Source: Lysobacter solisilvae (GTDB lineage Bacteria > Pseudomonadota > Gammaproteobacteria > Xanthomonadales > Xanthomonadaceae). From it: a stretch of 64,000 nt of DNA. Positions 19,223-56,792 of this stretch are shown piece by piece; the stretch's first letter is position 1, and every line of letters begins with the position of its first letter. The stretch spans positions 3,100,001 to 3,164,000 of the forward strand of contig NZ_CP071518.1 of assembly GCF_016613535.2 (NCBI RefSeq), in the 5' to 3' direction. The translations under genes and the position numbers were made by a program. The notes under the pieces were generated by a model. That model saw only the letters and a list, made by a program, of their open reading frames with translations. It had not been told where the DNA came from and did no database searches.

Positions 19223-19236
19223 TTGATCGAGGTCAA
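19223..19236 (+). promoter_or_regulatory. FNR/ANR-type box upstream of the P-type ATPase
   Basis: TTGAT-CGAG-GTCAA, nine of ten conserved positions of TTGAT-N4-ATCAA. A -10-like CATGCT lies 31 bp downstream (centre to centre), the class II geometry. The start codon of the ATPase is 125 bp further. Confidence 0.7.
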
Positions 19237-19361
19237 GCCAGCCCTGGGAGAGCGGTCCATGCTGGCGCCTGCGGGCGCGTGGCCCCGCGAATTTCGCAGG
19301 TCCGGCACGGTACGTAGCAACCCGCCGCTTACCGCGTCCGGATGGCGCCAGACGGTCGACG

Positions 19362-21890
19362 ATGAACGCAACCGCGCCCAATCCGGAGGGTCTCACCACG
19401 GCCGAAGCGGTCGCGCGCCAGCGTCGCGATGGCCCCAACCTGCTGCCCCAGCCAGACCGTCGCAATGGGCTGCGAATCGTCTGGAGCGTGCTGCGCGAAC
19501 CGATGCTGCTGCTCCTGATCGGCGCCTGCGCGCTCTACCTCCTGCTGGGCGACGCACAGGAGGCCCTTGTGCTGGCGGCTTCGGTCGTCCTCGTCGTGGG
19601 TCTCACCGTCTACCAGGAATATCGCTCCGAGCGTGCGCTGCAGGCGCTGCGCGAGCTGAGCAGTCCCCGCGCCCGCGTCCTGCGCGACGGCCAGACCCGA
19701 TTGCTCGCGGCACGGGAGCTTGTGGTCGGCGATGTCATCTTCGTGACCGAAGGGGACAGGGTCCCGGCCGATTCGCACGTACTGACGGCAAGCGACCTGA
19801 TGCTCGACGAATCCATGTTGACGGGCGAGTCGGCTCCGGTCCGGCGGCCGGGATCGCCGGAGGAGGACGCGGACAGCGCACTGATTCGTGCCAGCACACT
19901 GGTCGTTCGAGGCAACGGCACCGCGCAGGTGGTGGCCATCGGAGTACACACCGCCGTTGGGCAGATCGGCCAGGCCTTGCGCACACTGCGGTCGCCACCC
20001 ACACCCATGGAACGGGAGATGCGTCGCGCAGTCGGGCTGTTCGCGGTGCTGGGCATCGCGTCGAGCGTAGTGCTGACGTTGCTGTACGTTGCAGTACATG
20101 GCAACTGGCTCAGTGGACTGCTCGCCGGCGTCACCCTTGCCATGGCAAACATTCCGGAGGAATTTCCGGTCGTACTGACCGTGTTCCTGGCCTTGGGCGC
20201 GTGGCGGATGGCAGGTCATCGCGCGTTGGTGCGCCGCGCACCGGCGATCGAGGCGCTGGGGTCGGTGACCGTGCTTTGCACGGACAAGACCGGCACGCTC
20301 ACGCAGAACCGCATGACCCTGGCAGAACTGGTCACCGACCAGGCGCGGGCCACGCCGTCGACGCTGGCTTCCCGCGAACTGGAGGCGCTGCTGGACTGCG
20401 CGGACCTGGCGAGCGCGGATGAGCCGTTCGACCCGATGGAACGCGCCATCCGGACGGCCGCAGCGCCTCGGCCATCCACGCGCGACCGCAGAACCCGTGT
20501 CCGGGAATACCCCTTCTCATCGGAACTGCTTGCCGTAACCCATGTCTGGCGACGCGCCCTGGCCACCGGACTGGAGGTGGCATGCAAGGGCGCGCCCGAA
20601 GTCGTTGCCGGGCTCTGCAACCTGCCGGCCGAGACACGTTCCGTCGTACTTGCCCAGGCCGATGAGATGGCTCGCCGCGGGCTTCGCGTGATCGCCGCGG
20701 CATCGACTGTCTGGAACGAAGGCGAACGCAGCCTTCCCGCAACAGCCCGGGGGTTCAATCTGGAGTGGCGGGGGCTGCTAGGCCTGGCCGACCCCCTGAG
20801 GCCAGGCGTCGCCGGTGCAGTCGCCGATGCACAGGCTGCTGGCGTCCGCGTCGTCATGCTGACCGGAGATCATCTTGAGACTGCCCGCGCCATCGCCGCC
20901 CAGGCCGGAATCACGCAGGATGGCCGGATCGCACTTGGCAGCGAGCTTGAAGCGCTGGACCCGGCGACACTGGCCGAGTACGCGAACCACGTCGACGTCT
21001 TCGCCCGCGTGAAGCCCGATCACAAGCTCCGCCTGGTCAATGCCCTCAAGGACGCAGGCCAAGTCGTGGCGATGACCGGAGATGGCGTGAACGATGCACC
21101 GGCGCTCATGTCCGCCCACGTGGGCGTCGCCATGGGCGAACGCGGCACCGACGTCGCGCGGGAAGCGGCCTCCATCGTGCTGCTGGACGACAACTTCGTT
21201 ACCGTCGTACGCGCGATCAGACAGGGCAGATGCATCTACGACAACATCCTCAGTGCCGTGCGGTACATCCTGGCCGTCCATGTTCCCATCACCGGCCTGG
21301 CGCTGCTGCCACTGCTGTTCGGTGGAACGTTGATCCTGATGCCCCTGCACATCGTGTTCCTCGAACTGATCATCGACCCGGCATCGACACTGGTTTTCGA
21401 GGGCGAGCCGGCGGCTGCCGACGTGATGCGACGGCCCCCGAGGCCGCCCTCGCAACGGCTGCTGGATATCCCCACGCTGGTGCGCGCCCTGGGCCAGGGA
21501 CTGGCGGTCTTTGCACTGGTGACCGCGATATACCTGCTGGGGCGGTCCAAGGGCATAGCGACTCCGGAACTGTCCGCCCTGTCGTTCACTGCGCTGGTTG
21601 CAGGCAACCTCGGGCTGATCGTCGTCAATCTCTCCCGCAAGGCGAGAAGCCACTGGTGGCGTATTCGCAATCCCGCCTTCTGGATGGTGGCGCTGTCGGC
21701 CCTGGGCCTGCTGATGATCGTCACCCGGCTCCAGGGCCCCGGGAACTGGTTCGGCTTCGCGCCGCCGTCCTGGGAAATGACGATCCTCTCGCTGGTCCTC
21801 CCGCTTGTCGGGCTGGCACTTCTGGAGGCCGCGCGAGTGCTGTGGACACGTCGCCGAGTGGCGGTGACGGCTGTGCCTGGTAGCGGCTAG
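19362..21890 (+). CDS. Cation-translocating P-type ATPase (P2-like)
   Basis: 842 residues with all P-type landmarks: TGES (154-157), phosphorylation site D308 in CTDKTGTLTQN, and the hinge TGDGVND (572-578). The membrane part has segments near 40-85, 225-285 (with PEEF in M4, NIPEEFPVVLTV) and 640-830. M6 reads ELIIDPASTLVFEGEP, unlike the NxxxD of SERCA, so calcium is not certain; Mg, Mn or protons remain possible. A cation_ATPase_N region is present (LTTAEAVARQRR). An FNR-type box precedes it, and universal stress genes follow. Its exact substrate is open. Confidence 0.88.
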   Translation: MNATAPNPEGLTTAEAVARQRRDGPNLLPQPDRRNGLRIVWSVLREPMLLLLIGACALYLLLGDAQEALVLAASVVLVVGLTVYQEYRSERALQALRELSSPRARVLRDGQTRLLAARELVVGDVIFVTEGDRVPADSHVLTASDLMLDESMLTGESAPVRRPGSPEEDADSALIRASTLVVRGNGTAQVVAIGVHTAVGQIGQALRTLRSPPTPMEREMRRAVGLFAVLGIASSVVLTLLYVAVHGNWLSGLLAGVTLAMANIPEEFPVVLTVFLALGAWRMAGHRALVRRAPAIEALGSVTVLCTDKTGTLTQNRMTLAELVTDQARATPSTLASRELEALLDCADLASADEPFDPMERAIRTAAAPRPSTRDRRTRVREYPFSSELLAVTHVWRRALATGLEVACKGAPEVVAGLCNLPAETRSVVLAQADEMARRGLRVIAAASTVWNEGERSLPATARGFNLEWRGLLGLADPLRPGVAGAVADAQAAGVRVVMLTGDHLETARAIAAQAGITQDGRIALGSELEALDPATLAEYANHVDVFARVKPDHKLRLVNALKDAGQVVAMTGDGVNDAPALMSAHVGVAMGERGTDVAREAASIVLLDDNFVTVVRAIRQGRCIYDNILSAVRYILAVHVPITGLALLPLLFGGTLILMPLHIVFLELIIDPASTLVFEGEPAAADVMRRPPRPPSQRLLDIPTLVRALGQGLAVFALVTAIYLLGRSKGIATPELSALSFTALVAGNLGLIVVNLSRKARSHWWRIRNPAFWMVALSALGLLMIVTRLQGPGNWFGFAPPSWEMTILSLVLPLVGLALLEAARVLWTRRRVAVTAVPGSG

Positions 21891-21942
21891 CCGGCTCGCC
21901 AGCAGTGTGCGACGCGAGCTGCCCGCGCAGCAGAAGCGGCAT

Positions 21943-21956
21943 TTGATCTGGATCAA
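21943..21956 (+). promoter_or_regulatory. FNR/ANR-type box, perfect consensus
   Basis: TTGAT-CTGG-ATCAA is a perfect match to the FNR/ANR consensus. It ends 60 bp before the universal stress gene at 22017; GATGGT stands at the -10 distance (about 31-32 bp from the centre). Confidence 0.82.
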
Positions 21957-22016
21957 GGCCTCGTTCGACGACGGGTGCGATGGTCCCCTGCACAGCGTTG
22001 CAGGAGCGATCAGACC

Positions 22017-22861
22017 ATGATCCACGATGTCATGCTGCCCATCACTGGCACTGCTGGCGACGCCAACGCGATCTCTGCGGCCGTGCTGCTGGCCTCCACG
22101 CTCGATGCGCACCTCGCCGTCGTGCAGCCCATCACCTTGCCACTGCCGATGCTGGGTCCCTGGGGCCCTGGCCCCGGACGACCTCGTGGACCAGTTCTAC
22201 GCGCAGCTTCGCTCCGAGGCGACGCAGAAGGCGGAGCAGGTCCGGGAAAGACTCGCGAAGGAGACAGTGTCGTGGGACGTCCGTGTCGACGACGCCATGT
22301 TTGCCGAAGCACCACGCTCGATGGCCCGTCAGGCGCGATACGCGGACCTGGCCATCCTTGCAGCCCCCGATGAGGCGGCCGACGAAGCGCCCATTTCCCG
22401 CGCGTTCTTCAGCGCCATGCTCTTCGAGTCCGGTCGACCCGTGCTGGCCGTTCCTCCTCGGCAGACCCATGAAGGTCCGCTCCGTCACGCCGTCGTGGCC
22501 TGGAAACCGACCCCGGGAATCCACCCGGGCGGTCCATGATGCGCTGCCGCTGCTGGCCCGTTCCCAGTCAGTGGATGTCGTGACAGTCGACCCGGAGACC
22601 GGCGACATGGGCCAGAAGGCAGACCCTGGCGTCGACATCGCGGCGCACCTCGCGCGCCACGGCCTGCGAGTCAACCTGCTCAACATTGCGGGAGGCGGAC
22701 GGACCGCCGCGGCCGCCCTGCTCCAGCACGCGCGCGAGTCGGGAGCCCAGCTTCTGGTCGCCGGCGGCTACGGACATTCGAGGCTGCGGGAGTGGGCACT
22801 GGGTGGAACAACGCGCGAGTTGCTGCACAGCGGAGCTCTGCCCATCCTCTTCTCACATTGA
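22017..22861 (+). pseudogene. Tandem-domain universal stress protein, two frame breaks
   Basis: Three frames join into a protein of about 280 residues parallel to the intact paralogue at 27769: MIHDVMLPITGTAGDANA, then SWDVRVDDAMFAE...FESGRPVLAVP, then ESTRAVHDALPLLA...VAGGYGHSRLREWALGGTT. One extra G in GGGG 22162-22165 moves the frame out, and one extra C in CCCC 22511-22514 moves it again. Removing both gives a continuous product with a typical ending ALPILFSH. The second Usp domain keeps the G-x2-G-x9-G-[ST] nucleotide-binding pattern. Perfect FNR box upstream. Two errors in one gene make base-calling error likely. Confidence 0.8.
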
Positions 22862-23001
22862 CGGGACTGCCAGGCGCTTTTCGCGCGCCGAACACGCTCG
22901 ATGCATTTGTCGGCCGATATACCGCACCCGATCTGCGCCCCACCCCCGGGCGGCGCCCTCGCCGGAAGCAGGGCGCCGGGATGAAATGAACCCGCGAGCG
23001 T

Positions 23002-23558
23002 CTACAGCACGAGTTCGTGGATCACCTGGCTGGCATCCTCGGGATCCATCCTGGCATCGAACCCCAGGTACCTGGCCAGGTCCGCCATGCGGACGTTCTC
23101 GGCGGAATCGATCGAGTTCATCTGCCGGATGCCGTTGGAGCGGGCAACTTCGATCAGGTGGCGCATCAGCAGCGTTCCCAGTCCCTTGCTCTGCCATTTG
23201 TCGCTGACCGTCACTGCGCACTCGCACTGCGATCCATCCGCATTGGTGCTGTAACGGCTCACCCCGACGACATGTTCCACGCCCTCCTCCCGGACAACCG
23301 CGACAAAAGCCACGTCGTGCACGTAGTCGATGTGAGTCAACTGTTCAATCAATTGCTCGCTGGGCCGGCGTACCTGTCCCAGGAAGCGATAACGCCTCTG
23401 GCGTCATCCGACAGGCCTTCGATGAAGGCGCGTTCCTCATCGCGATCCTGCGGTGTTATGGGTCGAATCACGACATGTGTCCGATCGCGAAGGGTCTCGG
23501 ACCACCGGGGGAACTCAGGCCCGGCCGGGCCTTTGGAAACCAATGGACCACTGTTCAC
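23002..23558 (-). pseudogene. GNAT family N-acetyltransferase, frameshifted
   Basis: The start at GTG 23558 is behind GGAGAGG; the first 60 codons (VVIRPITPQDRDEERAFIEG) lead out of frame at the AGAG repeat 23398-23403. Dropping two bases there restores DARRYRFLGQVRRPSEQLI and the rest, including HVVGVSRYSTN, the acetyl-CoA loop SDKWQSKGLGTLLM and the C-terminal GIRQMNSIDSAENVRMADLA. Such GNAT proteins near Usp genes resemble the acetyltransferase half of Pat-type protein lysine acetylases, but the substrate is unknown. An FNR-type box lies 55 bp upstream of the start. Confidence 0.75.
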
Positions 23559-23613
23559 GGTTGCCTCTCCAAGGGACTCTCCCAGAGCCTAAACAATCGT
23601 CCACCACGCGCTC

Positions 23614-23627
23614 TTGATCCACGTCAA
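23614..23627 (-). promoter_or_regulatory. FNR/ANR-type box for the GNAT gene
   Basis: TTGAT-CCAC-GTCAA (9 of 10). On the minus strand a -10-like TAGGCT (23591-23586) is 32 bp from the box centre and the GNAT start is 55 bp away. It shares the divergent intergenic region with the next box. Confidence 0.68.
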
Positions 23628-23646
23628 ACACATTGCGCAAGCGCCG

Positions 23647-23660
23647 TTGACCAGGATCAA
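23647..23660 (+). promoter_or_regulatory. FNR/ANR-type box for the universal stress gene at 23716
   Basis: TTGAC-CAGG-ATCAA (9 of 10), with TACGCT at 23683-23688 as -10, 32 bp from the box centre, and the start codon 55 bp downstream of the box. Confidence 0.72.
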
Positions 23661-23715
23661 CATCCGCCTGGGTTGCCGCACCTACGCTGGGATCGGCTCG
23701 CTTGGGAGACCGACG

Positions 23716-24543
23716 ATGTTCAAGGACCTGCTGATACCCATGCTCGCCGGCGAGATCCCGGAGGCCGCCGTCAACACGGCATGCGCCATCGCCAGACAGC
23801 ACGGAGCACACGTGGATGCGCTGGTAGGCGTCAGCGTGATAACGCCCAACGCACTGGCATGGGCATACGACCCCGCCGGGGTGCGTGAAACACTGCGCGA
23901 AACCGCGGACGCGGCGGTGGCCGCCCTTGCCGCGAGCGCACAGGCCAGGCTGGCGCGGGAAGGCGTGAACCATGGCGTGCGACGGTGCGGCAGCATCTGG
24001 CTGACGACTGCCGAGTTCGCAGCGGCCTGCGCAAGATCCTGCGACCTGGTGGTCCTGGCACGTGGTCAACTGGACGACATGGGACGGCGCCTGTTCGCGG
24101 CCTTGATGTCGGGAAGCGGCCGCCCGGTCCTGCTGGTACCGGACGGCGCGGCGGAACCTGGCCGGTTCGAACGCGTACTGGTCGCCTGGAAACCCTCCCC
24201 ACAGGCAAGCAGGGCCTTGCACGATGCCCTTCCCCTTCTGCGCCAGGCCCAGCGCGTCGAGGTGATCGAGGTGGGGGAAGCCGATCAGGAGCCCCTCTCA
24301 CGGGACGCCGAGCAGGCGTTGCATGCGCATCTGTCGCGGCATGGCATCGAGGCGCAGATCATCCGACGCGATGGATCCCACCTGAATCCAGCGGTCCCGA
24401 TCATGCAACATGCTGCGCTGTCGACCACCGATCTCATCGTCGCCGGTGGCTACAGCCACTCCCGGGCGAGGGAACAGATCCTTGGCGGCGTGACGCGGAC
24501 GCTGCTGGAGCAATCGGCCTGTCCGGTCCTGTTCTCGCATTGA
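23716..24543 (+). CDS. Tandem-domain universal stress protein
   Basis: 275 residues, two Usp domains. The second keeps the ATP-binding loop as VAGGYSHSRAREQILGGVTR and ends CPVLFSH; the first domain (MFKDLLIPMLAGEIPEAAV...GSGRPVLLVP) is more diverged. ATG at 23716 with GGGAGA 6 bp upstream. Proteins of this kind support survival under energy limitation and hypoxia in pseudomonads and mycobacteria. Its own FNR-type box lies 55 bp upstream. The convergent iron-permease-family gene begins after a 14-bp gap. Confidence 0.88.
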   Translation: MFKDLLIPMLAGEIPEAAVNTACAIARQHGAHVDALVGVSVITPNALAWAYDPAGVRETLRETADAAVAALAASAQARLAREGVNHGVRRCGSIWLTTAEFAAACARSCDLVVLARGQLDDMGRRLFAALMSGSGRPVLLVPDGAAEPGRFERVLVAWKPSPQASRALHDALPLLRQAQRVEVIEVGEADQEPLSRDAEQALHAHLSRHGIEAQIIRRDGSHLNPAVPIMQHAALSTTDLIVAGGYSHSRAREQILGGVTRTLLEQSACPVLFSH

Positions 24544-24557
24544 GATGCGAGCCTGGG

Positions 24558-24947
24558 CTATTCGCCCCGCGCAGTACCGGTGAACTCACGGGACTCCCGC
24601 GCCAGTGCCTCGTAATGCTCGCGATAGCGATCCAGCGCCTGCTCATCCAGTTCCTCCAGGTCCAGCAGGGCATTGCTCGCCGCCTCCGTGACCCTGATGA
24701 GCTCATCGAGCTTGATCTGGATGGCCTCCGTATCCCGGTTCTGGGTGTTCTGGATCAGGAAGACCATGGCGAAGGTCACGATCGTCGTAGTCGTGTTGAT
24801 CGCCAGTTGCCAGGTGTCGCTGAACTGGAACAACGGGCCAGTCACCAGCCAGGCGACGATGACCAGAACCGCCAGCGCGAAGGTCAGCGGCCGGCCCGCC
24901 ACGCGTGAGGACTGTTTGGAAAATCGATTGAACAGCTGATTGACCAT
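24558..24947 (-). CDS. Low-affinity iron permease family membrane protein
   Basis: 129 residues. Two membrane helices near 20-40 (LTFALAVLVIVAWLVTGPLF) and 50-70 (AINTTTTIVTFAMVFLIQN), then the highly conserved NTQNRDTEAIQIKLDELIR and a helical tail. This is the PF04120 pattern; the 'iron permease' name comes from yeast Fet4 and transport has not been shown for the bacterial forms. ATG 24947 behind GGAGAA. No FNR-type box was found upstream, unlike most units in this island. Confidence 0.82.
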   Translation of the reverse strand: MVNQLFNRFSKQSSRVAGRPLTFALAVLVIVAWLVTGPLFQFSDTWQLAINTTTTIVTFAMVFLIQNTQNRDTEAIQIKLDELIRVTEAASNALLDLEELDEQALDRYREHYEALARESREFTGTARGE

Positions 24948-25103
24948 CGTGAGTTCTCCAATTTTTCTCATCCCTTGCAGAGCCTGCCGACCCGGTGATG
25001 TGACCCGACCCAAACAACGCAGGCACAAGTGCGCATCTTGCCGCCTTCCGTCAGGCCCATTGTGCGCAATCCACGTGCGGCCCGGTGGTCCTCCGGCCGT
25101 GCC

Positions 25104-26021
25104 TCATGGCTCATGCACGACCCCGCCCCGTCCCGCCGTCAGCCGCGCGACCACCGCCTCGGCAAGCGGCCCTGCAAGGCTGATCGCATTGGTGGCGTGG
25201 GCAATGCTGTCGGTGCTGACAACCCGCCCGGCACCGGCCCCATGCAGCGACTCCGGCGAGCCGGGGGCGAAAATGGCATGGATCACGACACAGACCGGCG
25301 GTGGAAATCCCAGTCGCCGGAGGTGCTCGATCGCCGCGCACAGCGTCCGACCCGTCGACGCGATATCGTCCACGAGTACAGGGGTGTGGGCGCGGAACCG
25401 ATCCATGTGCGGGACGGCGACCTCGACGTCGCGGTCGCCATGCCGTGTCTTGTGGAGCACCTGGAACGGTGCGTCCGCCCGCGCGGCTACCTGCGACACC
25501 CACTGCGCGCTCTCGGCATCGGGGCCGATCAGCAGCGGCATCGGGACGTTGGTGCGGATCCAGTCCGCCAGGTGGGGCGCTGCCGCCACGCAGGTCGTGG
25601 GCATGCGGAAGACGGCGTCCAGTGACGACACGCGGTGCAGGTGCGGGTCCACGGTGACAAGCCAGTCCACCGTCTGATCCAGGAACTGCGCGAACGCGTT
25701 CATGCTGATGGCTTCGCCACCGTGGAAGCGCGCATCCTGGCGCATGTAGGACAGGTACGGCGAAACCAGCCCCACGCTTGCCGCCCCGAACTCCCGCGCC
25801 GTATTCGCGGCGAACCGGACCGGCAGGGCCTTGCGGTCCGGATCATTGAGGCTGGTGAAGACGATCACGTCGGCACCGGCAACATCCTCGTCCACCGTCA
25901 CCAGCGACTCCCCGTCGGGAAAGTGCCGCCATTGGAAGCGACCCAGCCGCGCGCCGAGCCGTGTTGCCACGGCCGAGGCGACGCAGATGTCATCCGGGAA
26001 CGAGAGCACGACCGCCGCCAT
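25104..26021 (-). CDS. Ribose-phosphate pyrophosphokinase homologue
   Basis: 305 residues. Two type I PRTase folds: RQDARFHGGEAISMNAFAQF (flexible-loop region), VTVDPHLHR and the PRPP motif VLVDDIASTGRTL. PRPP synthetases make PRPP from ribose-5-phosphate and ATP. This one is shorter than housekeeping Prs and diverged in the N-domain, so it is a specialised paralogue. ATG 26021 overlaps the stop of the phosphorylase gene upstream (TGATG), so the two are translationally coupled and presumably act together. Confidence 0.85.
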   Translation of the reverse strand: MAAVVLSFPDDICVASAVATRLGARLGRFQWRHFPDGESLVTVDEDVAGADVIVFTSLNDPDRKALPVRFAANTAREFGAASVGLVSPYLSYMRQDARFHGGEAISMNAFAQFLDQTVDWLVTVDPHLHRVSSLDAVFRMPTTCVAAAPHLADWIRTNVPMPLLIGPDAESAQWVSQVAARADAPFQVLHKTRHGDRDVEVAVPHMDRFRAHTPVLVDDIASTGRTLCAAIEHLRRLGFPPPVCVVIHAIFAPGSPESLHGAGAGRVVSTDSIAHATNAISLAGPLAEAVVARLTAGRGGVVHEP

Positions 26022-27568
26022 CAATACTCGCCAGCAATGGTGAGAATGTCCGGGTGCGCGTGCGCGTACTCCAGTGCGTAGGCGAGCTCGCCAGGCGATT
26101 CGGCGTGCACCACCAGCAGGGGATCTCCCCGCTGGACACGGTCACCTTCGCGCAGGGTGCACACCAGGCCCGCCGCCGCGTCACGTGGAGCTCCGGCCAG
26201 CTTGGCAACCCGTGCCAGTTGGCGATTGTTGATGCAGGCGATCGTTCCGCTGGACGCGGCGAGCAGCGGCCGGACAAACCTGGCGACGCCTGGCTCGCGG
26301 AATCCCCCTTGTGCGTTACAGATGGCCATGAACTTGTGCAGGGCGGCGCCAGAAGCGAGCACCGCGGCAGCCTGCGCCCGGCCAGCGCCCTGCGCCACGC
26401 CGGGCAAAAGCTCCAGTACGGCGCCGGCTATGTCGAGCGCGCGCTCACGCAGATCGGCGGGAGCGTAGGGAATGCCTCTGAGCACCGCCAGGACGTCATG
26501 CGCTTCCAGCGCGGGTCCGATCCCGCGACCTACTGGCTGACTTCCATCGGAATAGCGAACGCCCACCCGCAGCCCCACCGCCTCACCCACGAATGCCAAC
26601 CGACGCGCGATTGCGTCCGCGGCCGCCGGGGTGCGGATCTTGGCCGTGATCCCGACTGGTATATCGATCAGGACGTGCGTCGAGCCTGCGGCGACCTTCT
26701 TGGACAGGATGCTGGCGACCATCTGGCCGTCACTGTCGAAATCCAGAGGGCGCTCGATCTGGATCAGGATGTCGTCGGCGGGACTCAGTCGCATCCTTCC
26801 TCCCGACGCCAGGCATCCGCCTTCGCGTTCCACCACGACGCGGAGGGTGTCCGACTCCAGGTCGACGTTGGTCATCGTCGCCATCACATCGGCCGTACCG
26901 GCCGGCGAAGTGATGGCCCTAGAAGAGGTCTTGGGCACCCGATGGCCCAGCGCGGCGACGATGGAGACCACGATCGGCGTCGTCCGATTGCCGGGCAGAC
27001 CGCCGACGCAGTGCTTGTCCAGCACCGGCCCCGGCCCCCAGTCCAGGCGTTCACCCACCTCGATCATCGCCCGCGTCAGGGCCACGGATTCATCCAGGTC
27101 CATCCGGTCTCCGGCACAGGCGGTGACGAAGGCCGCCAGTTCGATATCCGACAGCCGGGCGGTCATGACATCCCTCAGGACCGCCGCAAACCTGGGCTCG
27201 TCCAGTCGCTCGCCAAAGACCTTGGCCCTGAGCACGCCGGCCGACTCGGGCGGGTCGGCATGGGCGAATCCGGCGAGCGCGCCAGGCTGCGGAGCAAGCG
27301 CCTGCCATGCCGCGTCGGAGAGTGCTGCTTCGCAGGGGCCAAGCCAGTCTCCCGTGACCACGTTGAGGATCGCCACGATCTCGCGGCCGCCGCAGGTGAC
27401 CTTGACCCGCGTCAACGCAGCGAAACCTTCGGCTCGGCAGACCAGGCATCCCTCACGCAGGTACAGCACCGGCTGACGATAGGTATCGATGCCAGCGCGG
27501 CGCAGCGGCAGGCGGATGTGCTCCGGGCTGTACCGGTCTGGTCCGGCCGCTGGGTTGGTCTCATTCAT
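26021..27568 (-). CDS. Thymidine phosphorylase family protein (AMP-phosphorylase-like)
   Basis: 515 residues, longer than DeoA (about 440) and like archaeal AMP phosphorylases and bacterial 'putative thymidine phosphorylases', with an N-terminal extra domain (1-95). Active-site signatures: LDKHCVGGLPGNRTTP and KTSSRAITSPAGTADVM, then the C-terminal domain with LREGDRVQRGDPL. AMP phosphorylases convert a nucleoside monophosphate and phosphate to ribose-1,5-bisphosphate and a base. Coupling to a PRPP synthetase suggests phosphoribosyl recycling. An FNR box lies 52 bp upstream of ATG 27568. The choice between thymidine and AMP cannot be made here. Confidence 0.83.
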   Translation of the reverse strand: MNETNPAAGPDRYSPEHIRLPLRRAGIDTYRQPVLYLREGCLVCRAEGFAALTRVKVTCGGREIVAILNVVTGDWLGPCEAALSDAAWQALAPQPGALAGFAHADPPESAGVLRAKVFGERLDEPRFAAVLRDVMTARLSDIELAAFVTACAGDRMDLDESVALTRAMIEVGERLDWGPGPVLDKHCVGGLPGNRTTPIVVSIVAALGHRVPKTSSRAITSPAGTADVMATMTNVDLESDTLRVVVEREGGCLASGGRMRLSPADDILIQIERPLDFDSDGQMVASILSKKVAAGSTHVLIDIPVGITAKIRTPAAADAIARRLAFVGEAVGLRVGVRYSDGSQPVGRGIGPALEAHDVLAVLRGIPYAPADLRERALDIAGAVLELLPGVAQGAGRAQAAAVLASGAALHKFMAICNAQGGFREPGVARFVRPLLAASSGTIACINNRQLARVAKLAGAPRDAAAGLVCTLREGDRVQRGDPLLVVHAESPGELAYALEYAHAHPDILTIAGEY

Positions 27569-27620
27569 TCGAGCGTCCCGCAGTGCTCTGGCGACTCTAC
27601 TCGCCGACCCGGAACTCCAG

Positions 27621-27634
27621 TTGACCCTGATCAA
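27621..27634 (-). promoter_or_regulatory. FNR/ANR-type box for the phosphorylase-PRPP synthetase operon
   Basis: TTGAC-CCTG-ATCAA (9 of 10; TTGAT-CAGG-GTCAA on the transcribed strand). A -10 TAGAGT (27599-27594) stands 31 bp from the centre; the start codon is 52 bp away. Confidence 0.75.
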
Positions 27635-27698
27635 CAGTTGTTGGGATCCGGCCGGAAATCGCCGGAAGCGCCTGGCTTTCCGCCAGCGTCCGTGCAGT

Positions 27699-27712
27699 TG
27701 ATACAGATCAAT
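27699..27712 (+). promoter_or_regulatory. FNR/ANR-type box for the universal stress gene at 27769
   Basis: TTGAT-ACAG-ATCAA is a perfect consensus, 56 bp before the start codon; GATCGT stands 31 bp from the centre as a weak -10. Confidence 0.8.
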
Positions 27713-27768
27713 GCGACTGGCGCTGCGGGATGCGATCGTCGGGCCCGGCTCGACCAGAGCAGGCCCGC

Positions 27769-28611
27769 ATGATCCATGACCTCACCCTCGCGGTCACCGG
27801 CACGACGGGCGACCGGAACGCCCTCGCGGCGGCGGTCGCCCTCGCCGCTCAACACAAGGCCCACCTGACGGCGGTCCAGCCACTCGAGCTCCCGGTTCCG
27901 CTGCCAGCCCCCTGGGATACCGCGCCAGTGACGGTGGAGCACGAAATCTGTAACGCCCGGCGCGCCGAAGCAAACCAGCGGGCCGAGAGGCTTCGCGACG
28001 AACTGTCCTTGCAAGCCATTTCTTCGGAGGTTCGGGTTGCGGAAGCCCGCTACATCGATGCCCCACTGGCCGTCGCCCTTCTGGCACGCCATGCGGACCT
28101 GGGTGTGGTCGCGGCGCCTGTCCAGAATGCGGATGACGGAGCGATTGCGCGCGCCTTCATCGGCTCGCTGCTTTTCGAGTCTGGACGTCCGGTCCTGGTC
28201 GTTCCAGCTCACCATGCCATCGAGCTGCCCCTTCAGCACGCGGTCGTGGCGTGGAAGCCCACCCGTGAGGCCACGCGAGCCGTCCACGACGCATTGCCGT
28301 TGTTGAACCCGGCGGCGACGATCGACGTGGTCGTCGTGGACCCGCGATCGGGCGAACCTGACCAAGGGGAAGAACCGGGATGCGACATCGCCGGCCACCT
28401 GGCCCGACACGGCTTCAAGGTCAACGTCGTCACGCTCAAGCGGGGCCACGACACGGTCGCCACCACCCTCCTTCGCCACGCTGCGCAATCCAACGCGCGG
28501 ATGCTGGTCGCGGGCGGCTACGGTCACTCGCGCATGCGCGAATGGGCGCTGGGCGGTACGACGCGCGAACTGCTCCAGGCCATGCACCTGCCGATCCTGT
28601 TCTCGCACTAG
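27769..28611 (+). CDS. Tandem-domain universal stress protein
   Basis: 280 residues; the intact counterpart of the broken gene at 22017 (MIHDLTLAVTGTTGDRNA against MIHDVMLPITGTAGDANA). Domain 1 includes SLLFESGRPVLVVP; domain 2 has WKPTREATRAVHDALPLL and the nucleotide loop VAGGYGHSRMREWALGGTTR, ending LPILFSH. This pair is probably an old duplication within the island. Perfect FNR box upstream. Confidence 0.9.
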   Translation: MIHDLTLAVTGTTGDRNALAAAVALAAQHKAHLTAVQPLELPVPLPAPWDTAPVTVEHEICNARRAEANQRAERLRDELSLQAISSEVRVAEARYIDAPLAVALLARHADLGVVAAPVQNADDGAIARAFIGSLLFESGRPVLVVPAHHAIELPLQHAVVAWKPTREATRAVHDALPLLNPAATIDVVVVDPRSGEPDQGEEPGCDIAGHLARHGFKVNVVTLKRGHDTVATTLLRHAAQSNARMLVAGGYGHSRMREWALGGTTRELLQAMHLPILFSH

Positions 28612-28675
28612 GCGAGCACGCATTCACCACGGCCTGATGCCGCGGCGCATGTCTGCGTGCTCGCGTGCAATGGCT

Positions 28676-29449
28676 TCAGCGCGCGGTGTACCCGCCATCG
28701 ATCACGAGTTCGGAGCCCGTCATGAACTTCGATTCGTCCGAGGCCAGGTAGACTACGCCCCACGCGATGTCATCGGGCTCACCGACATGCCCCAGCGGAT
28801 GAAGCTGGCCCAGGTCCGCGCGGGCCGCGGCCAGATCCGTGGCGCCGCTTGCGCCCATGTGGTGGACCACCATGGGTGTCCAGATATAGCCCGGGTGCAC
28901 GGAGTTGACGCGGATTTTGTCGGCGGCGTAGAGCAGCGCGTCGGTGCGGGTCATCAGGGTCACCGCGCCCTTGGAGGCATGGTAGGGCGGCACGTCCGGC
29001 GCACCGACCAGGCCATAGATCGACGAGAGGTTGATGATGCTGCCCGACCCGGCGCGGCGCAGGTGCGGGATCGCATGCTTGATGCAGAAGAACACCCCCT
29101 TCACGTTCACCGCCTGCACGCGGTCCCACTCGGCCTCCGTTACCTCGTGCGTCGGCTTGTTGACGCCGGCGATGCCCGCGTTGTTGACGAGCACGTGCAC
29201 GGCGCCAAAGTGATCGGCCACGCCGTCGATGGCCGCCTGCACGGCGCGTTCGTCGGCGACGTCGACGTGCCAGTAGCGCGCGGGGAAGCCCCCCCCCTGC
29301 AGTTCCCCGGCGAAGGCGCGCCCGGCCTCGTCCTCCACATCGAACAGCGCCAGCTTCGCGCCCTCCTGCGCCAGGCGCAACGAACAGGCATGGCCTATGC
29401 CCAGGCTTGCGCCGGTGACGATGCAGACTTTGTCCTTGACGCGATTCAT
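28676..29449 (-). CDS. SDR family oxidoreductase (glucose-1-dehydrogenase-like)
   Basis: 257 residues, classical short-chain dehydrogenase: TGASLGIGH (cofactor loop), D37-type acidic residue in ALFDVED indicating NAD preference, LVNNAGIAG, S-Y-K catalytic set in INLSSIYG...PYHASKGAV, and the C-terminal SELVIDGGYTAR. Substrate unknown. ATG 29449 behind GGAGG. It lies downstream of the flavodoxin gene on the same strand (127-bp gap), possibly under the same FNR-type box at 30132. Confidence 0.88.
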   Translation of the reverse strand: MNRVKDKVCIVTGASLGIGHACSLRLAQEGAKLALFDVEDEAGRAFAGELQGGGFPARYWHVDVADERAVQAAIDGVADHFGAVHVLVNNAGIAGVNKPTHEVTEAEWDRVQAVNVKGVFFCIKHAIPHLRRAGSGSIINLSSIYGLVGAPDVPPYHASKGAVTLMTRTDALLYAADKIRVNSVHPGYIWTPMVVHHMGASGATDLAAARADLGQLHPLGHVGEPDDIAWGVVYLASDESKFMTGSELVIDGGYTAR

Positions 29450-29576
29450 GGTGCCTCCACGTCAATGGCCAATGCCGGCGTCGCAACCGTCCCTGTGCCT
29501 TTGCTAATGACGCGCTTGTGGAGACGGCACGCCAGGGGCGCTGGGACCGGCTTCCGCGCGCCCCCCGGCCGATGCG

Positions 29577-29978
29577 TCACGTCGATTGAGACGGGCAACG
29601 AAACGACGCAGCTCGTCGCGGTGGGCGCCCGGCCACATCCGCACCCTTGCCGCCTTCCGTGCAGAAAAAGGCCACCTTCTTGGCTTGCGTGGCATTTCGT
29701 TCGGCGAAGGTCCGGACCGGGGCCGCCAGCCGGCTGGCCCAGATGGGCCCGCCAATCACCAGGAGGTCGTAATCCGCCGGGGCATGCGCGCCGGCAAGAA
29801 TTGCAGGCCTGCGCCTGAGCGTCGCGTCGAACAACGCGCCGACGACGCCCCTCAGCCCACGCCGTGGCTTTGGCTCCCTGATTTCCTCCATGTCCGCGCC
29901 GGTGGCGGCTCGAATCTCCTCGGCCACGCGTCGGGTGTTGCCACCCATCGAGTAGTAGGCGATCAGGATGTCGTTCAT
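29577..29978 (-). CDS. Flavodoxin family protein, truncated and frameshifted at the 3' end
   Basis: 133 residues from ATG 29978 (RBS GAGGTG). The FMN phosphate loop YYSMGGNTRRVAEE, then GGPIWASRLAAPVRTF and KKVAFFCTEGGKGAD are normal for short flavodoxins. Then the sequence breaks: another frame gives GAHRDELRRFVARLN, which looks like the last helix of the same fold. About 30 codons between the two blocks seem to be missing. The encoded protein ends with an unrelated Arg-rich tail, so an intact flavodoxin is not made. This is more than a single-base slip and could be a genuine deletion. Confidence 0.72.
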   Translation of the reverse strand: MNDILIAYYSMGGNTRRVAEEIRAATGADMEEIREPKPRRGLRGVVGALFDATLRRRPAILAGAHAPADYDLLVIGGPIWASRLAAPVRTFAERNATQAKKVAFFCTEGGKGADVAGRPPRRAASFRCPSQST

Positions 29979-30131
29979 GGCTGCACCTCACCCGTCGTCA
30001 TGGATTCCAGGCGATGTCCCTCGCAGTCCCTGGCTTCGCGCGGCGGGACGGACACGCCACCGGAAGCCATTGCGGGAACACCCTTGCCGGTAATCGCCCA
30101 TCCAGTATCGGTGCGTACGGCGTCAAACGAT

Positions 30132-30145
30132 TTGACCCAAATCAA
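30132..30145 (-). promoter_or_regulatory. FNR/ANR-type box upstream of the flavodoxin gene
   Basis: TTGAC-CCAA-ATCAA (9 of 10). On the minus strand GATACT (30109-30104) is 32 bp from its centre. It overlaps an inverted repeat GTCAAA-CGA-TTTGAC (30122-30136). The flavodoxin start is 153 bp away, implying a longer leader than at the other boxes. Confidence 0.65.
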
Positions 30146-30154
30146 GCATTGCTC

Positions 30155-31558
30155 TCACTGCGCCGCGGACAGATCAACACACTGGCCGTACTCAGGCACG
30201 TGGGCCGGCCATTGAAGTTCGCGTTCGATGCGAAGCCGCAGGGCGTCGGCTGCGTCGGGCTCGCCATGGGTCACGAAAACACCTCGTGGGGACCGCGGCG
30301 CAGTACGCAGCCAGGCGATCACCTCGTCCGCGTCCGCATGCGCGGAGGCCGAGCCCAACTGCACGACCTCGGCACGGACAGGAACGTCCTGGCCGAAGAT
30401 GCGCAGTGCGGTTTCGCCACGGGCCAACGCCGCCCCGCGGGTACCGCCGGCCTGGAAACCGGACAGGAGGATGCCGTTGCGATGATCGGGAGCGAATGCA
30501 ATCAGGTGATGCAGCACCCGTCCGCCTGTCGCCATGCCACTCGCCGCCACGATGATCATGGGACCTCGGCGTCGGTTCAAGGCCTTGGACTGCTCCACGG
30601 TGTTGACGATCCGGGTCACCCGCTGCATGGCCTGCAACTGGCCGCCACTGAGCCGGTGCTGGTCCCGATATCGCTGATACAGGCCGGTGACATCTGCCGC
30701 CATGGGACTGTTGAGGTACACCGGCACCTCGGGGATCTCGCCGCGCGCCTGGAGCTGGGCAATCATGTGCAGCAGCAGCTGCGCCCGCCCGACGGCGAAG
30801 GCCGGGATGACCGCCACGCCGCCCCGGGCGAGGACGCGCCCCAATGCTTCCTTCAGCTCCTGCTCGAATGCCATGGGCAGGTGTTGGCGATTGCCATAGG
30901 TCGACTCGACGACCAGCCAGTCCGATTCCCAAATCGGCGCCGGTGCCCGCATGACGGGATCGCAGGGCCGTCCGATATCGCCGCTGAAGGTGATTCGTGT
31001 TTCCCCGAAGGCAAGCGAAACCGCCGATGCGCCCAGGATGTGGCCTTGCGGGCGCAGGGTCGCAACCAATCCCGGCACCGGTTCGAATGCCTGATCGAAC
31101 GGCACCGGCCGGAACACCCGCAGCGCGCGACGGGCGTCCTCTTCGGTGTAGAGCGGCTCGGCAGGATGGTGCCTGGAAGTCCCCTTCCTGTTGGCGTAAC
31201 CGGCTTCCTCCTCGAGCAGGTGGCCCGAATCCGGCAGCAGGACGCCGCACAGGTCGCGCGTGGCGTCAGTACACCAGACCGCTCCGGAGAAGCCCGCAGA
31301 GATCAGCCGCGGCAGGTAGCCGCTGTGGTCGAGATGGGCATGCGTCAGGATCACGGCATCGATGGAGGCCGGGTCGACCGGAAAGGGCGCCCAGTTCCGC
31401 AGGCGCAATGCCTTGTAGCCCTGGAACAGGCCGCAGTCGACCAGCACACGGTGGCTGCCCGCGTCCACCAGGTAGCGTGAGCCCGTCACCGTGGCATTTG
31501 CTCCCAGGAAGGTCAGGCGGAAAGCCGCAGGCTCTGGAGCTGGCGTGGTCGGGCTCAT
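30155..31558 (-). CDS. MBL-fold metallo-hydrolase with beta-CASP and RNA-specificity domains
   Basis: 467 residues. Metallo-beta-lactamase motif HAHLDHSGYLPRL, GHILGASAV, FSGDIGRP, then a beta-CASP insert (ESTYGNRQHL...YLNSPMAADVT) and the C-terminal Zn-binding region with VVQLGSASAHADADE (H-A-D) and VTHGEPDAA. This is the layout of CPSF73-like/YhcR-type ribonucleases, so an RNA substrate is likely. ATG 31558 is chosen by GGAAA and by the first conserved strand. An FNR-type box lies 54 bp upstream. It may tune RNA processing when oxygen falls; that is inference. Confidence 0.88.
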   Translation of the reverse strand: MSPTTPAPEPAAFRLTFLGANATVTGSRYLVDAGSHRVLVDCGLFQGYKALRLRNWAPFPVDPASIDAVILTHAHLDHSGYLPRLISAGFSGAVWCTDATRDLCGVLLPDSGHLLEEEAGYANRKGTSRHHPAEPLYTEEDARRALRVFRPVPFDQAFEPVPGLVATLRPQGHILGASAVSLAFGETRITFSGDIGRPCDPVMRAPAPIWESDWLVVESTYGNRQHLPMAFEQELKEALGRVLARGGVAVIPAFAVGRAQLLLHMIAQLQARGEIPEVPVYLNSPMAADVTGLYQRYRDQHRLSGGQLQAMQRVTRIVNTVEQSKALNRRRGPMIIVAASGMATGGRVLHHLIAFAPDHRNGILLSGFQAGGTRGAALARGETALRIFGQDVPVRAEVVQLGSASAHADADEVIAWLRTAPRSPRGVFVTHGEPDAADALRLRIERELQWPAHVPEYGQCVDLSAAQ

Positions 31559-31612
31559 CGATTTCCGGTCCGGTGCGATGGCCACACAATGACTGATGGG
31601 CCCCGGCGGGCC

Positions 31613-31626
31613 TTGATCGGCGTCAA
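31613..31626 (-). promoter_or_regulatory. FNR/ANR-type box for the MBL/beta-CASP gene
   Basis: TTGAT-CGGC-GTCAA (9 of 10), 54 bp upstream of the start; CATTGT on the minus strand stands 31 bp from the centre. Confidence 0.68.
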
Positions 31627-31714: not shown

Positions 31715-31728
31715 CTGACGCAGGTCAA
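31715..31728 (+). promoter_or_regulatory. Possible degenerate FNR-type box upstream of the beta-helix gene
   Basis: CTGAC-GCAG-GTCAA matches 7 of 10 positions and lies 103 bp before the start at 31832. No convincing -10 follows at the class II distance, so it may be chance. Confidence 0.3.
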
Positions 31729-31831: not shown

Positions 31832-32695
31832 ATGAAGAACTGTGCGCAGATCGTCCTGTTGCTGCTGCTCGGCGCAGGCAGCAGCCTTTCTTCCCCTGGA
31901 ATTTTGGCAGCGGAGGGCTACAGCAACTGCGAAGGCTTCATCGATTCATTGCCGGCGACCATCACGGCGCAGGGCGTGTGGTGCCTGCGCAAGGACCTGA
32001 ACACCGCGATCAGCGCCGGCACCGCCATCGACATCAGGGCCAACAACGTCACGATCGACTGCAACGACTTCAAGGTCGGTGGGCTCGCCGGAGGAGCGGG
32101 AACGTCGGCATATGGCGTGCGTGCCCTCTCCGCGCTCAACGCCACGGTTCGAAACTGCACGATGCGCGGCTTCTATGTCGGCGCAGGCCTGAGCGGAAGT
32201 GGCCATGTCATCGAGGACAACCGATTCGACGCCAACACCTACATCGGGATCGAGATCGCGGGGGATGCGAGCGTGGCCCGCCATAACCTCGTGGTGGACA
32301 CAGGAGGCTCGACGACGGTTGGCGGCTACGCGGTCGGCATCAAGGCCGGTGGCGCGGTCGATCTCATCGACAACACCGTCAGCGGCGTGGTCGGCCACCC
32401 GAATTCCAGCGGCATTGCGCTGGCCTACGGGATCAGCACGCATCATCTCTCGGGAAGCATCGCCGGCAACCGCGTAGGTGGCCTGGTGCCGAGCGGAACC
32501 GGCACCGTCCATGGCATCAACAACCAGGAGAACGGGCGGATCTCCATCCGCGCAAATGACGTCACCGGAAATGGCGGCGCCGGCACGGGCATTTTCTGTA
32601 CGTTTCCCAGGGGCAGCGCACTGGGCAACGTCATCAGCGGCTTCAGCACCGGACTGTCGGGCTGCACGACGCAGGACAACCTGATCGTTCCCTGA
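31832..32695 (+). CDS. Secreted right-handed parallel beta-helix protein (copy 1)
   Basis: 287 residues: signal peptide (about 1-27, ending ILAAEG), then a cysteine-bearing start (NCEGFIDSLPATITAQGVWC) and repeated beta-helix coils such as IRANNVTIDCNDFK, VRNCTMRGF, VIEDNRF, LIDNTVSG and IRANDVTG. Two paralogues at 55914 and 56832 share the entry motif and the ending GC..(Q/D)..N.I. Fold of polysaccharide lyases and surface adhesins, but no catalytic residues can be assigned; exported structural or binding role is inference. Confidence 0.82.
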   Translation: MKNCAQIVLLLLLGAGSSLSSPGILAAEGYSNCEGFIDSLPATITAQGVWCLRKDLNTAISAGTAIDIRANNVTIDCNDFKVGGLAGGAGTSAYGVRALSALNATVRNCTMRGFYVGAGLSGSGHVIEDNRFDANTYIGIEIAGDASVARHNLVVDTGGSTTVGGYAVGIKAGGAVDLIDNTVSGVVGHPNSSGIALAYGISTHHLSGSIAGNRVGGLVPSGTGTVHGINNQENGRISIRANDVTGNGGAGTGIFCTFPRGSALGNVISGFSTGLSGCTTQDNLIVP

Positions 32696-55913: not shown

Positions 55914-56792
55914 TCAGGGCAGGATGAGGTTGCCGCCCCCGTCCATGCACCCGGTGCCGACATTGGCCGGATAGCCCAGGGCCACGTTGTCACGCGCCAG
56001 CTGCACCGTGCCGCTGGCGAAGCAGGCGAACTGGGACCCATCGAGCGCGGACTTCACCATCAGGTTGTCGCGGATGACGGCGCGGCGCGCGTTTGTGGAC
56101 AGCGTGATGGCCCAGCCGAAGCCCGAGTCCGGCATCAGGTTGCGCACCTGGTTGCGGGCCACCAGCTGACCGTCGCCCCCGCTCAGGGTGATGCCCCAGA
56201 CCGGCCGGCCCGAACCCGGCGCCGATGACACCGTATCGACCAGGTTGTCCAGGATGTCCACGGTGCCGTAGGTGCTGATGCCGCGGATGTTCAGCTCGCT
56301 GCCCAGCCCGATGTCCAGCACGCGGTTGCGGCGCACCAGGTTGTCCAGCCCGTCCACCACGATGCCCCATCCGGTGCTGCCCTGGACGGTGTTGTCCTCC
56401 ACCACGTGCCCGCCGCCGTCCAGCGCCAGGTCGACGAACTGGCCGCGCAGGTAGATGCCCACCCGGAAGCCGCGCACGCTGCAGTTGCGCACCACGATGT
56501 TGCGCCGGTTGACCCCCAGGACGCCGAACGCCACCGTGTTCGGCCCCGCGGCCAGGTTGCCGAGGCGATGGCCATTGCAGTCGATGGTGATGTTGTTGCT
56601 CACCAGCTCGATCGCGCCGCCGCCGGTCTGGGCCGTGGTCAGGTCGGCCAGCAGGCACCAGGTGCCCTGCTTGCTGATCACCGTCGGCAACGAAGTGATG
56701 TAACCCGTGCACGCGCGGTGCGTCTCGGCCTGCGCCGGCGGGGCCAGCCATGCCGACACGAAGATCGGCAGGAGTAGGAAGAAGCGCGCCAT
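55914..56792 (-). CDS. Secreted right-handed parallel beta-helix protein (copy 2)
   Basis: 292 residues, signal peptide ending QAETHR. Entry motif CTGYITSLPTVISKQGTWCL, then LVSNNITIDCNGHRLG, VRNCSVRGFRVGIY, VVEDNTVQGS, RNRVLDIG and the ending GCMDGGGNLILP. It lies 39 bp downstream of copy 3 on the same strand, most likely one operon. ATG 56792, RBS GGAGGACC. Confidence 0.82.
   Translation of the reverse strand: MARFFLLLPIFVSAWLAPPAQAETHRACTGYITSLPTVISKQGTWCLLADLTTAQTGGGAIELVSNNITIDCNGHRLGNLAAGPNTVAFGVLGVNRRNIVVRNCSVRGFRVGIYLRGQFVDLALDGGGHVVEDNTVQGSTGWGIVVDGLDNLVRRNRVLDIGLGSELNIRGISTYGTVDILDNLVDTVSSAPGSGRPVWGITLSGGDGQLVARNQVRNLMPDSGFGWAITLSTNARRAVIRDNLMVKSALDGSQFACFASGTVQLARDNVALGYPANVGTGCMDGGGNLILP

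Follow-up and report, generated by a model that had tools for sequence, protein, structure and literature searches.

Two box-rich gene clusters of Lysobacter solisilvae as a candidate FNR/FixK regulon with a putative hybrid kinase, response regulator and GTTAC-repeat cassette

In the present study, we analyzed 64,000 nucleotides of the Lysobacter solisilvae genome (Xanthomonadaceae, Gammaproteobacteria; contig NZ_CP071518.1, positions 3,100,001 to 3,164,000; hereafter, the window), in which FNR-type boxes, TTGAY-N4-RTCAA, precede a group of stress-related genes (the stress island; positions are those of the window unless called genomic). Our reading, to which we give a probability of roughly 0.7, is that the stress island and a second box-rich island form two clusters of one predicted FNR/FixK regulon, and that a cysteine-less FixK-type paralog of FNR encoded in the second island is switched by a cascade of a hybrid kinase, a response regulator and a GTTAC direct repeat. 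It is reasonably probable that a cascade of the Rhizobiaceae type (hFixL-FxkR-FixK) is present among Xanthomonadales in the form of a cassette whose parts are inherited together and which has a tandem K-box of its own, and that the cassette is part of a low-oxygen survival island, gained and lost, of genes for universal stress proteins (Usp), ATPase, RNase, nucleotide phosphorylase and Prs; in L. solisilvae, cassette and island would be split and joined by the shared operator. Usp-rich low-oxygen regulons and FixK2-type regulons are already known as a kind. What appears to be new is the wiring, in which a FixK cassette under a K-box would be linked, in Xanthomonadales, to a survival island.

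The first-pass annotation of the window, made from its letters alone, had listed eight boxes, two of them perfect. All eight are real (the one listed at 27699 begins at 27698), and TTGAT-N4-ATCAA is indeed found at 21943 and 27698. An exact search gave nine sites in the window, all within 19223-31626; the overlooked one, at 27402-27415 (+), lies within the phosphorylase coding sequence and is probably not a promoter site. When one mismatch was allowed, the count in the window rose to 14; 100 shuffled versions gave 1.8 on average and never more than 6. Equal box density in random intergenic regions of the genome was one of the results that the annotation had named as refuting it. Across the genome (3,933,292 bp, one contig), we found 19 exact boxes and one match to the reversed pattern; nine boxes are in the stress island, eight in the second island (genomic 2,962,222-2,980,302, about 139 kb from the stress island) and two elsewhere, so that 17 of the 19 lie in the two islands. 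The binomial probability of nine of 19 boxes falling inside 12,404 bp is 2.8e-18, a value slightly flattered because the outermost boxes define the ends of the interval. Allowing one mismatch raises the genome-wide count to 216, and that of the control pattern to 72.

Could the boxes be products of chance or base composition? For the set as a whole we found nothing in favour of this, and only two sites inside coding sequence, 27402 and genomic 2,756,040 (the latter inside an open reading frame), may be chance occurrences. The window shuffles and the reversed pattern rule it out, and the -10 spacing and the retention of boxes in relatives described below also oppose it, leaving this origin a negligible probability. 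The boxes are almost certainly FNR/FixK operators, as predicted from their sequence, and very likely answer low oxygen. A further strict box is found at genomic 414687-414700, 64 bp 5' of a VIT-family metal transporter gene and with GATGCT 22 bp downstream; this gene is likely a further member of the regulon.

The arrangement of the boxes agrees with that of known promoters. Six of them are 52 to 60 bp from a start codon, as the annotation had said: those before the genes for phosphorylase (27621-27634, minus strand; 52 bp), a beta-CASP metallo-beta-lactamase protein (31613-31626, minus; 54 bp), Usp2 (TTGACCAGGATCAA, 23647-23660, plus; 55 bp), a GNAT protein (23614-23627, minus; 55 bp), Usp3 (TTGATACAGATCAA, 27698-27711, plus; 57 bp) and Usp1 (TTGATCTGGATCAA, 21943-21956, plus; 60 bp). 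The boxes of the P-type ATPase (TTGATCGAGGTCAA, 19223-19236, plus) and flavodoxin (30132-30145, minus) are at 125 and 153 bp. The -10 elements on the same strands are TAGAGT, CATTGT and CATGCT at 21 bp past the box for phosphorylase, metallo-beta-lactamase and ATPase, and TACGCT, TAGGCT, GATCGT, GATGGT and GATACT at 22 bp for Usp2, GNAT, Usp3, Usp1 and flavodoxin, respectively. Thus, the claim that most boxes have a TAnnnT-like -10 stands for the looser pattern, since NAnnnT is present at 21 or 22 bp at all eight gene-facing sites (two of the ten other strand-sites), and fails for strict TAnnnT, which is present at only three of the eight (phosphorylase, GNAT and Usp2; none of the other ten); this -10 window was picked after that claim had been made. 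When 152 strand-sites from both islands and 16 of the fetched relative loci were pooled, strict TAnnnT occurred 19 times at gaps of 21-22 bp and 11 times at all remaining gaps from 0 to 59. In class II FNR promoters, the box is centred near -41.5, and a -10 element about 22 bp past the box is the spacing expected of this class. For flavodoxin, the position of the -10 element would imply a leader of about 120 nt.

The annotation had reported no FNR-family gene in the window, and this was borne out: of five cNMP-binding proteins that Pfam models detected in the genome, none is in the window and two are in the second island. The regulator gene that it had proposed to look for was sought in the genome and found as two candidates about 139 kb away. 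The second island also contains genes for cbb3 oxidase, a Cu-oxidase/cytochrome c protein, NorB (nitric oxide reductase), NnrS, alternative oxidase and hemN. FNR proteins are recognized by three N-terminal cysteines and an internal one, together with an E-xx-SR recognition helix. The first candidate (genomic 2977035-2977793), adjoining hemN, has C-x2-C-x5-C, the aligned internal cysteine (MVC/MLC) and an ETVSR helix; it matches solved FNR at 1.7e-49 with all four cluster cysteines aligned. The second (genomic 2980422-2981141) has the FNR fold and, as the E-xx-[ST]R helix expected of a FixK-type protein, ETVTR, and C-x2-C-x5-C is absent from it and from its counterparts in relatives (14 of 14 proteins). 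It matches FNR at 2e-30, FixK2 at 3e-16 and DNR at 9e-7. Both recognition helices would fit the TTGAY-N4-RTCAA operator. We consider that the cysteine-less paralog is probably a main activator of the stress island, and that it, behind the hybrid kinase and an OmpR-type regulator, is a likelier dedicated regulator of the island than FNR alone.

Beside the paralog are genes for a hybrid kinase with PAS, GAF, HisKA, HATPase and receiver domains and for an OmpR-type response regulator. Among 99 genomes of the family, including that of L. solisilvae, the paralog was found in 14, and the full-length kinase in exactly the same 14; in 18 further genomes that passed 1e-80, the match was confined to the kinase core (scoring covered at most 12 candidates in each genome). 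The kinase and the OmpR-type regulator are near the paralog in 12 of the 13 relatives, the kinase being within 0.6 kb in 11 and about 3.4 kb away in one (G078 in our numbering). Its PAS domain matches the multi-sensor kinase 10jx (3e-21), FixL (5e-19) and the haem PAS sensor 1v9y (5e-7). A histidine aligns with the residue that we take to be the haem histidine of FixL, and this column is invariant in the 13 kinases compared (our own and 12 from relatives); the PAS domain may well bind haem.

The direct repeat GTTAC-N5-GTTAC, in two or three copies with a 10-bp period, is upstream of all 14 paralogs, and no other copy was found in the 14 paralog stretches. Counted across these 14 genomes in full, the repeat has 24 copies, 21 of which sit before the paralog; ten genomes without the cassette contain one copy in total. 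The reversed pattern is found 38 times in these 24 genomes; thus, the number of repeats is uninformative, and the case rests on their placement in 14 of 14. Of 35 copies of the repeat, 22 have A as the sixth base. The distance from the last GTTAC to TAnnnT is exactly 32 nt in 11 genomes and 42 nt in three, which would place the centre of the repeat near -52 and near -62, respectively. There is a good likelihood that the kinase and the response regulator control the paralog through this K-box-like repeat. The gene of the paralog itself has a box in eight of the 14 genomes; in the 230-bp count of relatives given below, it is boxed in seven of 13.

The lack of cluster cysteines, together with the neighbouring nitric oxide reductase, NnrS and Cu-oxidase/cytochrome c genes in L. 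solisilvae, would also suit a sensor of nitric oxide like DNR or NnrR, in which case the island would answer nitric oxide, not oxygen. However, the paralog fits FNR and FixK2 far better than DNR, the PAS domain of its partner kinase resembles FixL, its promoter has the K-box-like repeat, and in relatives it is found among homologues of the stress-island genes (nitric oxide genes were not searched for there). We regard the nitric-oxide sensor as very improbable.

The annotation had also proposed a comparison of homologous islands. Around the paralog, this comparison supports regulation by the boxes: in the relatives, 13 neighbourhoods, of which 12 span 20 kb and one 6.6 kb, together contain 43 strict boxes, whereas 1.4 would be expected from the density in each genome. 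Homologues of at least one island gene are present in 12 of the 13 (only GNAT in G095; none on the short contig of G014). Usp homologues are present in nine, eight of which have at least two boxes. The stretches around the phosphorylase genes of 15 relatives together have 34 boxes where 3.0 would be expected, and 21 of the 34 are in G012, G019 and G020. We then counted strict boxes within 230 bp upstream of homologues, for which the match had to start no more than 60 residues into the query at 40% identity or more (50% for ATPase) and all 230 bp of upstream DNA had to be available; the broken Usp1 and GNAT genes were excluded as queries. The chance of a strict box in a random 230-bp window is 2%. 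Of 11 Usp3 homologues, eight were boxed, seven of these eight at 55-60 bp, a distance that the window shares; the short-chain dehydrogenase in three of eight, the ATPase in two of six, and Prs in none of 15, as expected of a gene inside an operon. Usp2 (one of two), the iron permease (one of two) and flavodoxin (none of one) are too few to use. The density of boxes, the promoter geometry and the boxes conserved in relatives together support the annotation's central claim of an FNR-type regulon. Its observation of the boxes proves stronger than it had claimed, and its interpretation is correct in kind, if incomplete.

A simpler explanation is that the classical 4Fe-4S FNR alone runs both islands and that the paralog serves other genes or fine-tunes. 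The genome has a four-cysteine FNR, and FNR matches at 1e-15 are present in 80 of the 99 family genomes (other FNR paralogs being counted too). Furthermore, G020, with its stretch of six boxes, and G005 and G057, with boxed Usp genes, have no paralog, and FNR alone can suffice there. However, homologues of Usp3 accompany the paralog (12 of 14 genomes with it, 14 of 85 others; Fisher p 7e-7, phylogeny ignored), and eight of its 13 neighbourhoods contain Usp genes together with at least two boxes. In G038, of the same genus, FNR and seven boxes are present; phosphorylase, Usp3 and the paralog had no match there at the thresholds used. Thus, control by FNR alone appears unlikely, and we prefer the paralog, switched by its cassette, as the dedicated regulator.

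Several observations weigh against this preference, the boxed genes of G020, G005 and G057 among them. In L. solisilvae itself, the cassette is located in the second island and the stress island is without it, and the single GTTAC repeat of the genome equals the single copy of the reversed pattern. G096 has the cassette and island genes and no strict box in 20 kb. In G095, the kinase is on a different contig from the paralog, near which only a GNAT homologue is found. The limit of at most 12 candidates per genome bounds the absence of the kinase elsewhere in the family, and the candidate haem binding rests on a single aligned histidine. Usp1 and GNAT have broken frames. Finally, the phosphorylase neighbourhoods of 12 of the 15 relatives have zero to three boxes each, and strict boxes are rare before phosphorylase (two of 15) and the metallo-beta-lactamase gene (three of 13); the annotation's proposal that the regulon joins nucleotide salvage and RNA turnover thus holds in the genome of L. 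solisilvae and is weak among its relatives. We also considered the phosphorylase-Prs-metallo-beta-lactamase module as a conserved core of the regulon and rejected it; the module is widespread, yet 62 of 80 named loci around phosphorylase have no strict box (36 boxes in all, 14 of them in L025, L035 and L037).

Outside the family, we searched 369 genomes of the class with the FixK-type protein, and 16 of them had a match at 1e-40: L. solisilvae, G462 (another family of the same order), where the protein is found with kinase and repeat, and 14 with classical cysteine-bearing FNRs. The kinase search of the phylum, in which three candidates were scored for each of 398 genomes, gave matches in 19. 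Full-length relatives are present in G462 and G658, both of the same order, with K-box-like repeats; neither FixK nor a repeat was found near a second kinase copy in G462. In 14 other genomes, only the kinase core matched. Full-length kinase relatives also occur in G691 and G821, of the same class, where the genes for kinase, response regulator and an FNR-type protein are grouped (loci L191 and L192) and no GTTAC pair was found; perhaps they represent a wider cassette family with another operator. In the family, G062 has 111 strict boxes (one to 28 in the other 98 genomes), perhaps owing to a repeat element in which the motif occurs, and G034 has 22 strict boxes and the metallo-beta-lactamase-phosphorylase-Prs module, with no FNR match at 1e-15.

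The first gene of the stress island encodes a P-type cation-transporting ATPase of 842 aa (19362-21890, +), whose nearest solved relatives are calcium ATPases and which reached no NCBIfam equivalog cut-off. Three genes for tandem universal stress proteins are found further on: Usp1 (22017-22861, +), with two breaks in its reading frame, at about 22152-22168 and 22466-22514, Usp2 (23716-24543, +; 275 aa) and Usp3 (27769-28611, +; 280 aa). The GNAT gene (23005-23558, -) is broken once (about 23397-23403), and its C-terminal piece matches Acetyltransf_1. Usp1 and GNAT still keep good boxes, and the breaks reflect either decay or assembly error. A low-affinity iron permease family gene (24558-24947, -) and a short-chain dehydrogenase gene (28676-29449, -) have no box of their own here. 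The Prs-like ribose-phosphate diphosphokinase gene (25104-26024, -) overlaps the end of the gene for the phosphorylase (26021-27568, -; 515 aa), a thymidine/AMP-phosphorylase-like protein. The closest solved relatives of the latter (4ga4-4ga6, 8e-92) are titled 'putative thymidine phosphorylase' and are presumably archaeal AMP phosphorylase; it exceeds the cut-offs of NCBIfam PRK04350 and TIGR02645 and scores 431 bits with the AMP phosphorylase model TIGR03327, under the cut-off of 535. Then follow the genes for a flavodoxin-like protein (29577-29978, -; 133 aa) and the beta-CASP metallo-beta-lactamase protein (30155-31558, -; 467 aa), whose nearest solved relative is RNase TTHA0252. The latter scores 337 bits with the type VII CRISPR Cas14 model (cut-off 800) and 233 bits with aCPSF1; being under the Cas14 cut-off, it shares the RNase fold and is not assigned to CRISPR. 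Beyond the island, a one-mismatch box at 31715 precedes an exported-looking gene (31832-32695, +) with a paralogue at 55914-56792 (-); they have 35% identity over their length, and the second matches right-handed beta-helix models.

The course of events that we propose is as follows. When oxygen falls, the FixL-like PAS domain, perhaps with haem, would free the kinase activity; the response regulator would then bind the K-box-like GTTAC repeat and induce the cysteine-less FixK-type protein, which in turn would activate the genes of the stress island. Once oxygen is lower still, the 4Fe-4S FNR would join it at the same boxes. The products of the island, such as Usp, the cation ATPase and flavodoxin, may serve survival rather than growth, and a route through the RNase, phosphorylase and Prs might recycle RNA nucleotides. 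Such salvage in hypoxia is a tentative proposal, drawn from gene content and the Bradyrhizobium precedent given below. If the scheme is true, a gammaproteobacterial family gains a two-tier oxygen response, FixL-type for mild and FNR for severe hypoxia, that is devoted to survival, not to respiration or nitrogen fixation, and the known range of the K-box cascade is widened. Furthermore, the RNase, phosphorylase, Prs and Usp would be a small gene set and a candidate salvage route in non-growing cells.

In a literature search that left most subscription journals outside its reach, we found, among the papers listed and in part by title, no report of a K-box FixK cascade in Xanthomonadales, nor a paper on FNR and Usp in Xanthomonadaceae or on FixL and hypoxia in Lysobacter; the FxkR papers found concern, by title, rhizobia, Alphaproteobacteria or plant microbiomes. 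The annotation had called the regulon unrecognised; this does not hold, since comparable systems have been published in Burkholderia and Bradyrhizobium. The lxa locus of Burkholderia comprises about 50 genes. This low-oxygen locus of B. cenocepacia is reported to be rich in Usp, with six such proteins (PMC6127331), and the CRP/FNR regulator BCAM0049 to be homologous to the FixK that FixLJ controls in B. dolosa (PMC6127331, PMC5234846). The island here has three Usp genes, one of them frame-broken, and its link to low oxygen and to a FixK-type regulator is a proposed one; the difference is that Burkholderia FixJ has a LuxR-type helix-turn-helix and the regulator here is of the OmpR type. In Bradyrhizobium diazoefficiens, bll3117-bll3116-bll3115 (phosphorylase, Prs and metallo-beta-lactamase) and a Usp gene are reported as lower when fixK2 is mutated, and boxes are given at -74 and -72 (PMC9104804); the three proteins rise in microoxia (PMC6515984). 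There, however, the three genes form one operon (two units here), and the upstream system of this alphaproteobacterium is FixLJ, not hFixL-FxkR. In Herbaspirillum seropedicae, two universal stress proteins are co-activated by Fnr1/Fnr3 at low oxygen (PMC5934665), and the accessible part of that report mentions no clustered island like this one.

The closest likeness is to the hFixL-FxkR-FixK cascade, the origin of which has been assigned to the ancestor of Rhizobiaceae (PMC4999443). In Rhizobium leguminosarum, the components are a hybrid FixL, FxkR, a K-box with the sequence GTTACA-N4-GTTACA at -62, FixK, FnrN and, as the anaerobox, TTGAT-N4-ATCAA (PMC7888657); FxkR is of the OmpR type (PMC7769827). 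The cascade of R. leguminosarum and R. etli and the one proposed here have in common a hybrid FixL-type kinase, an OmpR-type regulator, FixK without cluster cysteines, a GTTACA-N4-GTTACA-like site about 60 bp before the start, TTGAT-N4-ATCAA output boxes and a parallel FnrN/FNR. The match is one of architectural elements, and the response regulator is likened to FxkR by type, not by sequence orthology. Unlike the rhizobial cascade, the one proposed here belongs to Gammaproteobacteria, has two or three tandem copies of the repeat and a kinase with PAS plus GAF, and places a box before its own fixK-type gene in eight of 14 genomes; its cassette often lies inside a Usp stress island, with no tie to nitrogen fixation.

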